Positions 4,448 through 27,220 of a DNA stretch of 34,890 nt are shown piece after piece. The DNA lies in IMG/VR virus record IMGVR_UViG_3300009285_001228, positions 1 through 34,890 of that record; one strand, written 5' to 3'. Position 1 is the first letter of the stretch, and every line of letters starts with the position of its first letter. A program made the position numbers and the translations under genes. Under the pieces are notes generated by a model. The model was given only the letters and a program-made list of their open reading frames with translations. It was not told the origin of the DNA and did no database searches. This stretch comes from a virus.

Positions 4448-4936
4448 TTAAATGATTTTATAGACTACTACTATATCAAGTGAACCGCCTGTAGCAATTT
4501 CACTGGTAATCAGTAAATCATCTCCTAATGTTTGAGAAGCAATACCTGTATCACCAAAAAACTCAATTATTCCTGAACCTGCTGCTAAACCAGGATGGGA
4601 TAAAACTACTCCTGTAGTCGTTGGTGTAGTTGAAGCATGGAAACCAATCAAGACCGATACATCTACCGAACAGGCATGGTCTAATAACGCCGCACATTTC
4701 TTAACCACAATCGTTTCTGCTGCTCCTGCCGTTACAATCGCCGTATTAGTCTGAGTTGCCGTATAGTTAGCCCGTAATGTCAACCAATCGCTGTCATAAG
4801 AAATAGCCGCAGTTGCATCTACCAAAAGACGGTGAGTAGTCGGGTCAGCCCACAAATTGATAGGCGTAGTATTATCCGCATTAGAAAAGACAATTAAAGT
4901 CGTGACTCTATTACCATCTCTACCAGCATTAGCCAT
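4448..4936 (-). CDS. Small beta-rich virion-like protein
   Basis: Unrecognised protein of 162 residues. It starts MANAGRDGNRVTTL, contains many Thr, Ala, Val and Gly residues in short alternating runs, and ends with a strand-like DIVVVYKII. The N-terminal RDGNRV element recurs as RDANRV at the start of the 5841-6311 product. This composition and its place after the capsid genes suggest a virion component such as a fibre tip, neck or decoration protein, but the sequence does not decide which. No catalytic motif or membrane segment is seen. Confidence 0.7.
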   Translation of the reverse strand: MANAGRDGNRVTTLIVFSNADNTTPINLWADPTTHRLLVDATAAISYDSDWLTLRANYTATQTNTAIVTAGAAETIVVKKCAALLDHACSVDVSVLIGFHASTTPTTTGVVLSHPGLAAGSGIIEFFGDTGIASQTLGDDLLITSEIATGGSLDIVVVYKII

Positions 4937-16613: not shown

Positions 16614-16802
16614 ATGAGAGAACTATCAGAAAAAAAACTAAAAGAAATATGTCTTAATTATATCAACGGAAATAGAACAATCGTACATGAGGCTATAAGA
16701 AAACTTAATAAACTACAAATAGCTAACTTCATAATGAGATGTAGCAATTATGGATTAAAGAGGCACAACGCATATACGCAAATACAATTTGCTCTTAAAT
16801 AG
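16614..16802 (+). CDS. Small helical basic protein
   Basis: ORF of 62 residues, MRELSEKKLKEICLNYING then two further helices ending QIQFALK. AGAGGTG lies before the ATG. The Lys-rich helices could bind nucleic acid. The gene ends directly at a 14-pair hairpin. Not recognised. Confidence 0.6.
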   Translation: MRELSEKKLKEICLNYINGNRTIVHEAIRKLNKLQIANFIMRCSNYGLKRHNAYTQIQFALK

Positions 16803-16807
16803 CCTAG

Positions 16808-16844
16808 TGAGTAGCCTTCAACCTCTGGGCTTGAGGGCTACTCA
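16808..16844 (+). other. Long hairpin after the 16614-16802 gene
   Basis: TGAGTAGCCTTCAA (16808-16821) pairs with TTGAGGGCTACTCA (16831-16844) to give a 14-pair stem with one G-T pair and a nine-base loop. No T tract follows, so it is not a classic terminator. It may stabilise the mRNA end or be a processing site. Confidence 0.6.
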
Positions 16845-16914
16845 GTACGCTATAAACGCACTTTAACAACCCGCACACGATAGCGTCATAAGATCCACGA
16901 AAGTGAGGTTATCT

Positions 16915-17325
16915 ATGACATTTAATAAAACAGATTCCCTGGAAGCCAGGAGAGAACTCCAAGAATTATTTGACAAGTTCGGCACAACTACCGTGTTTGT
17001 AAACCAGAGGCACGTATCACGCTCAGGTATGACTCGTTACTTAGACTTATATCTATTACCGAGTTATGACAAAGCCTTTTTCTGGTCACAATCCCCTCTG
17101 TTGATACTGGCTGGTACGCAATCGCAAATTGAACCACGCCGTATCACCTTACTGATAGCCAAAGCCCTACAATGGCCGTATCATAAGGAAAGAGAGACAT
17201 TGATAGTTTCAGGATGCGGAATGGATATGCACTTTCACACCGTTTATTCTCTATCTTGTCTATTATATTGCAATAAGCATTATGACCATGAGAAAGCCTA
17301 TTATTTAAAACATCAAACGATCTAA
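16915..17325 (+). CDS. Conserved phage/plasmid protein with RHVSRSGMxR and GCGMDM motifs
   Basis: Protein of 136 residues. RHVSRSGMTRYLDLYL and, later, SGCGMDMHFHTVYSLS are a pair of motifs I know from an uncharacterised family spread over phages and mobile elements, in which the two are joined by a short strand-rich segment. Here the segment between them contains IEPRRITLLIAKALQWPY. The invariant Ser, Cys, Asp and His residues suggest a small enzyme or ligand-binding domain. The ATG at 16915 has GAGG six bases upstream; an in-frame GTG at 16903 is less likely. A terminator follows directly. Confidence 0.7.
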   Translation: MTFNKTDSLEARRELQELFDKFGTTTVFVNQRHVSRSGMTRYLDLYLLPSYDKAFFWSQSPLLILAGTQSQIEPRRITLLIAKALQWPYHKERETLIVSGCGMDMHFHTVYSLSCLLYCNKHYDHEKAYYLKHQTI

Positions 17326-17341
17326 GACGCTATAAACTAAC

Positions 17342-17367
17342 AAACCCGTACAGTGTGCGGGTTTTTT
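17342..17367 (+). terminator. Strong rho-independent terminator
   Basis: AAACCCGTAC pairs with the GTGCGGGTTT side to give a ten-pair stem with a three-base loop (one G-T pair), followed by TTTG. It closes the rightward block. Confidence 0.88.
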
Positions 17368-17425
17368 GTTGGCTTATGAATAACAATCTATTTTTATTTT
17401 ATGGACAAAATGACTTTAAAAATCT

Positions 17426-17539
17426 GTTCACCTTTTTTACCAACTAAACGGCTCTGGAAATCGGTTCACCTTTTTTACGATTCTCCGTATAGGGCAATCT
17501 CCGTATAACCGTTTTCTCCGTATATTCACCTTTTTTTAA
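17426..17539. repeat. Two iteron-like repeat families
   Basis: GTTCACCTTTTTTAC is at 17426-17440 and 17464-17478, with a related ATTCACCTTTTTTTAA at 17524-17539. TCTCCGTATA occurs three times at 17482-17491, 17498-17507 and 17515-17524, 16 and 17 bases apart. The region is AT-rich and has no supported gene. Such a set could be a replication origin or regulator sites. Confidence 0.8.
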
Positions 17540-19447: not shown

Positions 19448-19766
19448 CTGTTCCCGATGTCGCTCTACTTAATTGGACTTGCTGATGAGCAGACTTTTGA
19501 ATTTTCTGTTGAAGATAAATATTATGTTGATTAGCTAGTTGATTGATAAGACCATAACATTTAGCATCCTCCCCCACAAAACCACTCATTTGCGATTGAG
19601 CATAAGGACTATCAATACCTACTACTAAATTACCAATCATGGCTTGTTCTACTCGATTAAGATTTTGATATTCTTCATTAAACTTACCGATATTAGCAAT
19701 CACTCCAGAAATAAATTGAGCTAATTCATCTAGTTTCTTATAGTTAATCTTCTTATCGTTTATCAT
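19422..19766 (-). CDS. Protein of unknown function after groEL
   Basis: Protein of 114 residues, starting MINDKKINYKKLDELAQFI. AAAAGGAGAAGA lies before ATG 19766 inside the groEL end, which favours it over an upstream in-frame start. The body is helical with many Gln/Asn residues and ends RATSGTDESQKGIN. No family recognised. Confidence 0.6.
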   Translation of the reverse strand: MINDKKINYKKLDELAQFISGVIANIGKFNEEYQNLNRVEQAMIGNLVVGIDSPYAQSQMSGFVGEDAKCYGLINQLANQHNIYLQQKIQKSAHQQVQLSRATSGTDESQKGIN

Positions 19767-21339
19767 TCTTCTCCTTTTCTTCTTCAAATGAAATTAAAGT
19801 ATTGGTAGTCAAGATTGAGGTCGCTACCGTTACACCATTTAAGAGTGTTAGTCGAATAACTTTAGTCGGGTCAATCACTCCAGTTTCTTTCATATTCTGT
19901 AGTTGTCCTGACTGGACTTCATAACCAATACCATTTCCTTTGCTTTCTATCTCAGTTATTAAGTCGTTTATATTACGGGTACTTTCTCCACAATTTTCCA
20001 TAATCTTTCGGGTAGGAGCTGATAAGATTTCATACATCAAGCGTTCACCCTCATTCCTATTTCTATCTAAGACTTTTCTTAATTGCAAAAAGGTCACACC
20101 TCCACCAGGCACAATGCCTTCATCTCTAGCTGATGTAGCTGCTCCAATTGCATCCTTAACCCGTTCCACTTTCTCCCGCATATCAATCTCGGTCTTAGCT
20201 CCGACTTTAATAACTGCTACACCTGATGTAATCTTGGCTAACCGCTTCTCGGCTTTCTCTACCTGAAACTCATTCTTTTCTTCTTTAATACGGTTACGTA
20301 AATAATCAATTCTAGCTTCAATCTCTTTTTTATCGCCCTTACCATTGATAATGACAGTTGTTTCTCGATTAGCAATTACCTTATCAGCACTACCGATTAC
20401 AGTCATATCAAAACCTGTACTTCGTTTTTCGCTAATGACTTTAGCTCCTGTCACTACTGCAATATCATCCATGTAATCTTCCCTATCTACTGGTGGAGCT
20501 TTAGCAACTACGATATTGATATTTCCCTTTTGCTTATTAACTGCAAGTGTAGCTAAAGCATCACCACTCATATCCTCACATAAAATTAGAAAGTCTTTCT
20601 TACCCGTTACTACTAATTGCTCAATGATTGGCACAATATCACTGATTACTGTCAACTTCCGCATAAATAAAAGAATGGTAGGATTATCTACTATTGCTTC
20701 CATCCGGTTAGGATTAGTCACAAAGTAAGGACTGATATAACCATTCATAATTTCCAAGCCGTCAGTATATTCAATCTCTGTTTCTAATTTACCTTCCTCA
20801 ACTGTTACCATTCCATCTTTACCAATCTTAATAACTGCTTCAGCTACCATTTTTCCAATCTCTTTATCAGCAGAAGAAATAGTAGCTACTTCTACCAATT
20901 GCTCTTTATCTTTAGCTTCCTGGCTTATCTTCTCTAATTCTTTGGTCAATAAGGATAAAGTTTCTTCTATTTGTTCCCGCAGTACCATCGGATTAACACC
21001 TTCTTCAATGAGCTTAAAACCTCGCTTAACAATCTCGTATGCTAATAAGGTAGCAGTAGTCGTACCATCTCCGGCTTGGTCATTGGTTTTTTGGGCTGCT
21101 TGTTGAACAAGGTTAATACCAATAGCTACTAATGGGTCTTTGAATTGATGGTCGTGTTCTGACACTGAACGGGCTACTGTTACTCCGTCATGCACCACAA
21201 TTGGTATCCCCCACTGACGCTGGATAGCCACATTTCGGCCTTTCGGACTCAGAGTGGAAACAACTGCTTTAGCTAATATCTCAACACCCTCTAAGAGCTT
21301 CTGTCGGGCTTGATTATCAAACGAAATTATCTTACTCAT
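19753..21339 (-). CDS. groEL: GroEL-type chaperonin, phage-encoded
   Basis: Chaperonin subunit of 528 residues, close to the usual 540. Equatorial ATP-site motifs are in place: SPKGRNV (31-37), DGVTV (51-55), GDGTTTATLL (90-99), the catalytic Asp in VKDAIGAATS (about 396), and GIVPGGG (408-414). The apical domain spans about 190-370. The C-terminus ends in a Glu/Lys run and lacks the GGM repeat of bacterial GroEL. Phage copies are thought to help fold capsid proteins or replace a host function. It is co-transcribed with a GroES-like gene, with one small gene between them. GAAGGA lies upstream of the ATG. Confidence 0.93.
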   Translation of the reverse strand: MSKIISFDNQARQKLLEGVEILAKAVVSTLSPKGRNVAIQRQWGIPIVVHDGVTVARSVSEHDHQFKDPLVAIGINLVQQAAQKTNDQAGDGTTTATLLAYEIVKRGFKLIEEGVNPMVLREQIEETLSLLTKELEKISQEAKDKEQLVEVATISSADKEIGKMVAEAVIKIGKDGMVTVEEGKLETEIEYTDGLEIMNGYISPYFVTNPNRMEAIVDNPTILLFMRKLTVISDIVPIIEQLVVTGKKDFLILCEDMSGDALATLAVNKQKGNINIVVAKAPPVDREDYMDDIAVVTGAKVISEKRSTGFDMTVIGSADKVIANRETTVIINGKGDKKEIEARIDYLRNRIKEEKNEFQVEKAEKRLAKITSGVAVIKVGAKTEIDMREKVERVKDAIGAATSARDEGIVPGGGVTFLQLRKVLDRNRNEGERLMYEILSAPTRKIMENCGESTRNINDLITEIESKGNGIGYEVQSGQLQNMKETGVIDPTKVIRLTLLNGVTVATSILTTNTLISFEEEKEKNDKR

Positions 21340-24735: not shown

Positions 24736-25359
24736 ATGAAACTCACTATTCCAGAATCTTTTAAAAACAAAATGAAAGGTTGGTTCGCCGAAAAAAAAGA
24801 ACAATTAAAGGAGTTTATTCCTACTAATACCTGGACTCTTGAAGCCGATAAACCCCCTACTCCTTCACCCCAATTTGCTCAACCTACTCCTACTCCTCAA
24901 CCAGCTTTTGATTCTACCAACCATACTGAAATAGAAAGGAAAATGAGACAAGGCTTACGGGAATATTCACAAAAAGCTACCGGAGGCAAAGAATTACCAG
25001 TAGAACGCTATATCCCTAAATTCATGGAAGCAGTCAAGAAATATGATTTCTTTAAGAAAAACCCGTTCCTTCTACCTCAAATCGCTATTTTAGAAACATC
25101 AGGAGGTAAATACATTACTAGACCTAATAACCTTCTTAATTGGGGTATTAACTATCCAGGCAATAACCAACTCTTTGCCCAAATGAATATGGATGAAGTC
25201 TTAGACAGAGCGATTAGTGGCATAGGTGAACGCTCTCCATACTATAACGAAATCAGGAAAACTAATGACTTACAGAAATTCGCAGAGACTTATGAACCTA
25301 GTAACAAAGATTATTACCGTAGCTTGAAGTCTGGTATGGATTATTTCTCTAATTTGTAG
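24736..25359 (+). CDS. Lysozyme/transglycosylase-like wall hydrolase
   Basis: Protein of 207 residues. A basic amphipathic start (1-28) is followed by a Pro/Thr-rich linker (40-57) and a helical domain. PQIAILETSGGKYITRPNN then NWGINYPG (about 114-141) resembles the catalytic part of lysozyme-like and glucosaminidase enzymes, in which a Glu (here 120) at the end of a helix precedes a G-G-K/xTxxxNxxNWG phrase. No signal peptide. It could cut peptidoglycan during entry or lysis. It is the only gene transcribed rightward in this part, from its own promoter. The ATG at 24736 is preferred over the upstream ATG at 24700, which lies in the promoter. Confidence 0.65.
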   Translation: MKLTIPESFKNKMKGWFAEKKEQLKEFIPTNTWTLEADKPPTPSPQFAQPTPTPQPAFDSTNHTEIERKMRQGLREYSQKATGGKELPVERYIPKFMEAVKKYDFFKKNPFLLPQIAILETSGGKYITRPNNLLNWGINYPGNNQLFAQMNMDEVLDRAISGIGERSPYYNEIRKTNDLQKFAETYEPSNKDYYRSLKSGMDYFSNL

Positions 25360-25463
25360 TTACTAGCTACTTTCTAACTCTCTCAAAAAGAAAAGAAAAA
25401 AAAGAAAAGAAATCCCCCCCGAGCCGATTACGTTGGTGTTACCCTGCACTTACGGCATAAAAA

Positions 25464-25550
25464 ATCGCACCATTAAGCGATGATGTAGTCTATCGGCTAT
25501 AGCCGTTATAGACTTCACATCCAATAGTCAGGAACAAATTAAAGTGCGAT
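25464..25550. ncRNA. Candidate structured RNA element
   Basis: Outer arms ATCGCAC (25464-25470) and GTGCGAT (25544-25550) enclose GATGT-AGTCTAT (25482-25493), a tip CGGCTATAGCCG (25494-25505), then ATAGACT (25508-25514) and ACATC (25517-25521). The result is a long two-part stem with small bulges. The first strand of the fold could be DNA or RNA; transcription from the rightward hydrolase gene would produce it. No known family is recognised. Confidence 0.45.
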
Positions 25551-25551
25551 A

Positions 25552-25629
25552 GAGCTTATTAGCTCAAGGGGAGAGGCGAAGCACAAAAAAGAAGTGAATC
25601 TTATGAGACAGACACACGACGCTTCGCCT
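25552..25629. other. Further hairpins in the non-coding stretch
   Basis: GAGCT (25552-25556) pairs with AGCTC (25561-25565) around TATT. AGGCGAAGC (25574-25582) pairs with GCTTCGCCT (25621-25629), with further GGGAG to CTCCC pairing outside it. No gene is seen in 25360-25836, which otherwise holds a purine-only run (about 25385-25412) and terminators. Confidence 0.6.
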
Positions 25630-25644
25630 TCCTCCCTGAACCAA

Positions 25645-25686
25645 CAAAAAAGCAGTTCGTACACCCTTTTAAGGCAACCAACTGCT
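25645..25686. terminator. Hairpin with T tracts, possible two-way terminator
   Basis: AGCAGTT (25651-25657) pairs with AACTGCT (25680-25686) around a 22-base loop. On the plus strand CTTTTCT follows; on the minus strand TTTTTTG follows. It could end the rightward hydrolase transcript and back up the leftward terminator. Confidence 0.55.
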
Positions 25687-25722
25687 CTTTTCTAAACACA
25701 AATAATTTATGTTTGGCATAAT

Positions 25723-25781
25723 AAAAAATCCCCTCTTGGATAGGTCTAAGCGTAATAAACTTAGACCAGCCCAAGAAGGGA
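25723..25781 (-). terminator. Strong composite terminator of the lysis/fibre operon
   Basis: Read on the minus strand: TCCCTTCTTGG, a small internal loop, GGTCTAAG, a nine-base loop, CTTAGACC, an internal loop, CCAAGAGGGGA, then TTTTTT. The outer stem has one mismatch and the inner eight pairs are perfect. It lies 56 bases after the last gene of the leftward right-hand block. Confidence 0.9.
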
Positions 25782-25836
25782 CTGTAGCTGAAGTTTATTA
25801 CTAAACCTATCCAAAGTCAAGTTAATCCTTTTTTAT

Positions 25837-26046
25837 TTATTTGTCAAGTCCTTCTTCTTTCTCACATAAATCCTGGCCGTCAGGCTGAAAATAGGGTTCC
25901 AATTCAGCAAATCCGGCTTGACTAATAACTCTAGCTATTTCTATCGGTAAAGCCCTACGGTTGCCAAACACCCCTCGTTCCAATGTTGTTCCTCCATAGA
26001 CATTAAATAAGGCTTGCCAGTAGTCTTTAGGTATTTCAGGCAACAT
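25837..26046 (-). CDS. Small protein of unknown function, last gene of the lysis block
   Basis: Protein of 69 residues, MLPEIPKDYWQALFNVYGG then a Arg/Glu-rich middle and an acidic tail ending EKEEGLDK. It starts three bases after the holin-like stop with no strong ribosome site, so it depends on coupling. It may be a lysis helper. Not recognised. Confidence 0.55.
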   Translation of the reverse strand: MLPEIPKDYWQALFNVYGGTTLERGVFGNRRALPIEIARVISQAGFAELEPYFQPDGQDLCEKEEGLDK

Positions 26047-26049
26047 GGT

Positions 26050-26256
26050 TTATAGAGGCGATAATCCCTTTAATCCTTCACCCGTATCTTTCCAATTTTC
26101 GTGTAACCATTTGTCAACAAATCTTAATATAAAAGTTCCGACAATCGCCCATTGGACGTCTAATTTAGCTAATTCAACCACGAGCCAAGCTACAAACGCA
26201 AACGCAGCCAGCCGTAATGGTTCTTTTAGTGCTTGCTTTAAAGTTTCCCAATTCAT
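26050..26256 (-). CDS. Holin-like membrane protein
   Basis: Protein of 68 residues. LRLAAFAFVAWLVVELAKL (about 15-33) is a first membrane helix, VQWAIVGTFILRFVDKWLH a second, shorter one. A charged N-terminus and a polar tail complete the usual class II holin plan. It follows the endolysin gene by ten bases. GAGGTG lies six bases before ATG 26256. A holin forms holes in the inner membrane for lysis; a holin antagonist is the alternative. Confidence 0.6.
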   Translation of the reverse strand: MNWETLKQALKEPLRLAAFAFVAWLVVELAKLDVQWAIVGTFILRFVDKWLHENWKDTGEGLKGLSPL

Positions 26257-26266
26257 TTTTCTCACC

Positions 26267-27220
26267 TCACTTTCTTTTAAACCATTCTTTAATCTTTTGG
26301 ACTATCAATTTGATTGCCCAGAGTATTTGATTATGACTAATGCTACCCGATTTCAACTCTGATATGGTTTGATTGAGTTCACCAATCTTTCTACCCATAC
26401 CGTCAACCTGCTCTTGAAATGCCTTAAGTCTAGCCTCAAAGGCATTGGCAATTTCTAGTGACTTAGTTAGCTTGATAACAAGCTCATTCCTAAGCTCCTC
26501 ATTTCTTAGCAGTTCATCCTTGAGTCTGCCAACTTGTTCCTCCCTGTTTTTAGCCTCGGTTTCCCAATAAGCAACCTGTTTGGTTAGGTCTGTAGCTCTG
26601 GATTTTAACCCTGCTACTACATCTTGCACTCGTTCAAACGGGGTTAGGGTAGGGTCGGTAGTGGGTATTTCTAAATAGATTACAGTCTTGTCGTAACTCT
26701 CACTACCTGTCCGAAGTCTCTCAAAGTCTGCTTTAGTGATTTGGATTGTCGTCTGGTCATTTGCCATATTCTCCTTTACAAACTTAATTGGGTCTATCCA
26801 CTTCTTTAAATCATCTAATGTTTTAGCAATTCCATCTACTCCTGTTGGTTCTACTTTAATCGCCCAATGGAGATGGGCGAAATCAGTTCCAGTTTTACCT
26901 AACGTAGCTACCTTTTGTCCTTCTTTAACCCTATCACCAATTTTAAGAGGAATAAAATCACAATGAGCGTAATGGCAGTAAACGCTTCCAAAGGTTCCGT
27001 CATGTCTGATGTGGACATGGTTTCCAAAAGTCGGCTTGCCGATATGGCTATGGACTGAAGTAACCTCACCATCAGCGATTGCATAGATGGGTTGGCCTAA
27101 GTCGGAGTCGCCACCCGACTTTAGGTTGAGGTCACTCCCGTCATGGTAGCCATAACTGGTTTTTTTGCCGAATGGTTGGGCATCATACCAATTCTCCCAT
27201 TTGTCAACAGGCCATCTCAT
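26267..27220 (-). CDS. M23 metallopeptidase endolysin with C-terminal coiled coil
   Basis: Protein of 317 residues. The M23 domain (1-150) has HxxxD at His26/Asp30, the YCHYAH segment (81-86) and HLHW (116-119), so all zinc and catalytic residues are present: it should cut peptide cross-links of the wall. Residues about 185-290 form a coiled coil, and the last 25 residues are Lys/Trp-rich and may bind the membrane or wall. No signal peptide. The length beyond the domain and the coiled coil suggest a wall-binding or virion-bound form. It overlaps the next gene by four bases. Confidence 0.85.
   Translation of the reverse strand: MRWPVDKWENWYDAQPFGKKTSYGYHDGSDLNLKSGGDSDLGQPIYAIADGEVTSVHSHIGKPTFGNHVHIRHDGTFGSVYCHYAHCDFIPLKIGDRVKEGQKVATLGKTGTDFAHLHWAIKVEPTGVDGIAKTLDDLKKWIDPIKFVKENMANDQTTIQITKADFERLRTGSESYDKTVIYLEIPTTDPTLTPFERVQDVVAGLKSRATDLTKQVAYWETEAKNREEQVGRLKDELLRNEELRNELVIKLTKSLEIANAFEARLKAFQEQVDGMGRKIGELNQTISELKSGSISHNQILWAIKLIVQKIKEWFKRK

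Follow-up and report, generated by a model that had tools for sequence, protein, structure and literature searches.

Tandem intrinsic terminators at the ends of phage operons are GC-rich hairpins with U6 tracts in series that follow late or lysis genes and precede the next promoter. T7-type concatemer-junction and end-processing regions also lie between late and early genes and contain hairpin-forming sequence, and phage non-coding RNAs in Rfam are a third model for phage sequence that folds densely and has no gene. Here, we analysed a folded stretch (positions 25464-25629) of a phage sequence that has the hairpin make-up and the siting of the first of these systems. We favour, with moderate confidence, the reading that the late operon ends, at its junction with the early genes, in a terminator/insulator array that carries additional stems.

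Genomic setting and folding of the stretch

The window, that is, the whole stretch of DNA analysed, is an IMG/VR virus record of 34,890 bases that encodes a phage large terminase (phrog_675), GroEL and an M23 peptidase. It is probably an incomplete phage genome, since related genomes reach 43-45 kb. Relatives of the terminase exist with identities of up to 68%; searching genome_contigs with the terminase gave 0 matches, and none was found when relatives were sought through the 207-aa gene or the M23 peptidase gene. The GroEL (528 aa, 19753-21339) is approximately 40% identical to GenBank phage GroELs, and its gene is also carried by relatives of this phage. The folded stretch lies in a non-coding gap of 477 bases (25360-25836) that separates the late/lysis operon on the minus strand from a plus-strand gene converging on it (Table 1). 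Judging by gene content and position, the minus-strand operon behind the tabulated promoter appears to be early.

Table 1. Features at the late-early junction, with their positions in the window.
Feature	Position	Strand	Details
Perfect sigma-70-like promoter	24706-24678	-	TTGACA-17-TATAAT; heads the next minus-strand operon
207-aa gene	24736-25359	+	Converges on the late operon; no family match; called a hydrolase in the sequence-only reading
Polypurine (plus)/polypyrimidine (minus) tract	25383-25412		From sequence and tandem repeat finder; adjoins the 50-base element
Shared element, ~50 bases	25410-25459		Common to phage record G031/L111
D5, long bulged stem with palindromic tip	25464-25550	-	TTTTTT (25463-25458) directly 3'
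Small five-pair hairpin	25552-25565		GAGCTTATTAGCTC; from sequence and folds
T3, stem of ~24 pairs	25553-25645	-	T6 run in the loop, none at the base
T2, intrinsic terminator candidate	25645-25691	-	GCAGTT..AACTGC + TTTTTTG
T1, strongest predicted intrinsic terminator of the window	25722-25781	-	TCCCTTCTTGG...CCAAGAGGGGA + TTTTTTATT; late operon end
69-aa ORF	25837-26046	-	Last late gene region (25837-26265)
71-aa small protein gene	26050-26265	-	Late; homologues in G010, L105 and L111
M23 peptidase gene	26267-27220	-	Upstream of the last late genes

Folding of 25464-25629 gave a minimum free energy of -49.0 kcal/mol as plus-strand RNA (mean of dinucleotide shuffles -31.8; z -5.05) and -53.5 kcal/mol as minus-strand RNA (shuffle mean -35.8; z -4.78), and 0 of 200 shuffles equalled the fold. 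Folded as DNA, the stretch had a z of -5.85, again with no shuffle as good. ORFs of at least 60 aa, tRNAs and tmRNAs were absent from it, and a DNA similarity search in phages and plasmids returned nothing, or hits at chance level. An Rfam search, which the sequence-only reading had suggested as a check, identified no family, the 4227 models giving 0 matches at the gathering level and chance matches only at the relaxed level. The stretch is a real, non-random structure and, as that reading had it, free of genes.

The individual elements were also recovered. The outer arms of the long two-part stem (D5) are ATCGCAC/GTGCGAT (25464-25470/25544-25550), and its inner bulged hairpin, at approximately 25479-25521, carries the palindromic tip GGCTATAGCC. 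The small hairpin follows, and the reported nine-pair stem, AGGCGAAGC/GCTTCGCCT, grows to approximately 24 pairs on the minus strand (T3). The end that had been set at 25629 was not borne out: the folded unit continues to approximately 25815 and is stronger on the minus strand. In a scan of 150-base pieces (928 strand-windows), the strongest fold was the minus-strand piece at 25651 (z -7.5), and the minus-strand piece at 25501 ranked fourth (z -5.6).

Elsewhere in the window, the second-strongest fold lies at 16801-16950 on the plus strand (z -5.9), where two consecutive hairpins without a T-run immediately precede a plus-strand gene (start at approximately 16915) and resemble a structured 5' leader. 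The gap resembles this 16.8-kb leader weakly (p 0.006, for a comparison chosen after the fact). At 17405-17478, where no clear gene lies, a 38-base unit bearing CACCTTTTTTACCA motifs occurs twice as an imperfect direct repeat.

Hairpins, T-runs and strand preference

Most elements (T1, T2 and T3) are more stable as minus-strand than as plus-strand RNA. For 25440-25836, z was -10.8 on the minus strand versus -6.2 on the plus strand. T3 reached -42.3 kcal/mol (z -6.8) versus -29.6 kcal/mol (z -4.1), its minus-strand helix being extended by G-U pairs that are A-C on the plus strand. The corresponding energies were -21.5 versus -10.8 kcal/mol for T2 (25645-25700), which is imperfect on the plus strand and has only TCTTTTCT as a tail there, -39.2 versus -32.0 kcal/mol for T1 (25722-25816; z -5.9) and -27.3 versus -25.6 kcal/mol for D5 (25458-25552; z -4.5). 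The minus strand is richer in G and U and folds better in general; z is clearly better on it for the whole gap and T3, but T1, D5 and the reported stretch alone give approximately equal z on the two strands. It is therefore T2, T3 and the T-runs that carry the strand argument.

On the minus strand, T1, T2 and D5 each have a T6 run directly 3', the D5 junction reading ...GGTGCGAT-TTTTTT. Such a run is absent at the base of T3 and of the small hairpin, which are not terminators by the hairpin/T-run test; on the minus strand, the bases of the small hairpin also compete with the longer T3 stem. Of the 23 T6 runs on the minus strand, four fall within 25459-25728 (270 bases), with a Poisson P of 3.6e-5 for that stretch; if placement were uniform, the probability of any such cluster would be approximately 0.01.

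Candidate terminators were scored with a hairpin/U-tract discriminant, d (threshold d > 0). Over all 34.9 kb of the minus strand, four sites exceeded the threshold, the best two being T1 (d = 32.1) and T2 (d = 12.6). Three of the four lie inside the 380-base junction, the third being a weak site at 25402 (d = 2.0). D5 ranked sixth on this strand and fell below the threshold (d = -5.3) because its arms are approximately 70 bases apart. The hairpin energies in the scan (T1 -32.9, T2 -14.1 and D5 -25.7 kcal/mol) are those of stable, GC-rich hairpins. The sequence-only reading had placed the terminators further right and had taken the long bulged stem for something else, probably through reading the plus strand. 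On the minus strand, this does not hold: the long stem itself runs straight into T6 and closes a series that descends from 25781.

Two further observations concern terminators. In the T1 region (25736-25814), a longer alternative pairing on the same strand, TTGGATAGG...CCTATCCAA, excludes the terminator hairpin, a geometry that, on sequence grounds, would be that of an attenuator. On the plus strand, the window has a single strong intrinsic terminator, CCCGTACAGTGTGCGGG + TTTTTTG at 17345-17368 (d = 24), which closes a small gene cluster of that strand (16.0-17.3 kb).

From the observed hairpins, T-runs, positions, strand bias and statistics, we infer that the hairpins terminate transcription and that insulation is their purpose. 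The late transcription unit on the minus strand would have its 3' end here, formed by intrinsic (Rho-independent) terminators in tandem together with strong stems (T1, T2, T3 and D5), and the array would stop late mRNA before the convergent plus-strand gene and the early operon, whose promoter lies approximately 0.75 kb downstream. On leaving the lysis genes, polymerase would meet T1 first; polymerases reading through would then meet T2 and subsequently D5, each a hairpin with an immediate U6, and the T3 stem probably helps as a pause site or as a stable mRNA 3' end. The site suits terminators because the lysis genes end here, a gene converges on them and a consensus early promoter follows downstream.

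T3 and the small hairpin lack a basal T-run and D5 has d < 0, so termination alone leaves approximately half of the reported stretch without an explanation. With no T-run belonging to the 24-pair stem or the small hairpin, a non-coding RNA or an origin, two of the functions that the sequence-only reading had entertained, is still conceivable, but nothing found speaks clearly for either. The dense, non-random, gene-free structure on which that reading drew stands. An RNA on the plus strand, either a structured non-coding RNA or the 3' UTR of the 207-aa gene, would span approximately 235 bases and comprise 25464-25550, the small hairpin and the long stem, with T2 as its terminator. Ordered, stable structure does exist on that strand too (25440-25720, z -5.5), with T2 at its 3' end, and the adjoining 50-base element is conserved in another phage. 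However, most elements fold less well on the plus strand, which also gives T2 a poor tail, no good plus-strand promoter lies just upstream, and neither Rfam nor, in related records, a covariance model yielded a homologue. We regard such an RNA as unlikely.

Related junctions and a shared 50-base element

The gene order at the junction is partly common to six relatives (G004, G009, G010, G011, L105 and L108), and DNA similarity between their junctions and that of the window was not found. The covariance model of 25464-25629 found only itself in 0.67 Mb and had no match in eight further loci or twelve whole records; over approximately 0.73 Mb of related records, no homologue came up. Exact patterns for the palindromic tip gave no match, and the palindrome is common to no relative; for the T3 stem, a single exact-pattern match fell within a GC-rich coding region and was attributed to chance. 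At the same junction, G004 has three late-sense units of hairpin and T-run (9505, 9570 and 9643) without sequence similarity, G009 has one, and G010 one or two. By the same scores, G011, L105 and L108 showed no clear late-sense array, and the sites of L111 were weak. The units recur by position without sequence homology, which fits terminators and not a conserved RNA. The 43.2-kb G011 also carries a 145-base repeat (99% identity) at both ends (L099 1-145 and L101 3056-3200), as would come from a circular or circularly permuted genome.

One sequence next to the array is shared with another, otherwise unrelated phage. In L111 (record G031, 49,755 bases), the copy AAGTCCTCCCCCGACCCGATTACGGTGGTTTTACTGTCTTACGGAAT at 4554-4600 aligns to 25410-25459 of the window, with 24 of 27 positions identical in the core. 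The local score was 45, whereas none of 3000 dinucleotide shuffles scored above 35 (Gumbel p 4.6e-6, for a single comparison out of ten made). In both phages, the element is non-coding and lies at a convergent junction beside the 71-aa small protein gene; relative to the flanking late genes, it is inverted in G031. It contains three TTAC motifs at successive intervals of 11 and 11 bases. A two-copy profile detected no third copy in the compared loci, and a viral scan returned the L111 record and seven other stretches, nearly all in reading frames and dismissed as chance.

The role of the element may be transcription-related or lie in replication or DNA processing. Together with the adjacent folded RNA, it might be an undescribed functional element, either regulating the 3' ends of late mRNA or marking a site of replication or DNA processing, which we consider possible but doubtful. 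A site acting at the DNA level (replication origin, packaging or concatemer processing), at which the palindrome and the 50-base element bind protein, would account for the 43-bp imperfect palindrome, the polypurine tract and the conserved TTAC-bearing element, for the location between late end and early start, and for the cruciform-capable fold as DNA (z -5.9). But the two phages have different terminase families (phrog_38 in G031, phrog_675 in the window), which makes a common cos/pac site unlikely, there is no GC-skew switch, and no relative shares the palindrome; a DNA-level site is in our judgement quite unlikely. An attachment site (attP) or the end of a mobile element could likewise be a non-coding palindromic region outside operons, and the flipped orientation in G031 would agree with one. 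However, long flanking repeats are missing, no integrase or resolvase occurs in the window (probably an incomplete genome) or G031, and tyrosine and serine recombinase domains were absent in seven of seven records (the window, G031 and five relatives) with controls detected; we hold this reading to be highly improbable. The 50-base element, kept despite a different packaging module, would merit attention however the hairpins act.

Comparison with known systems

Dense structure in a gene-free phage stretch is what the locus has in common with the phage non-coding RNAs of Rfam; unlike them, it matches none of the models at the gathering level. On the terminator reading, the locus would caution that dense folding in a phage region free of genes does not by itself point to a new RNA, the T-runs being visible on the other strand only. 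T7-type junctions are similar in position and in their hairpin, with sequence or gene evidence for such a region lacking here. Tandem intrinsic terminators are the system that we prefer for the comparison, and the array differs from the usual ones in that T3 has no basal U-tract, D5 has a large branched loop, and the stems are more numerous and longer. If this reading is correct, the region would be an ordinary but unusually heavy stop signal that closes the late operon of a phage.
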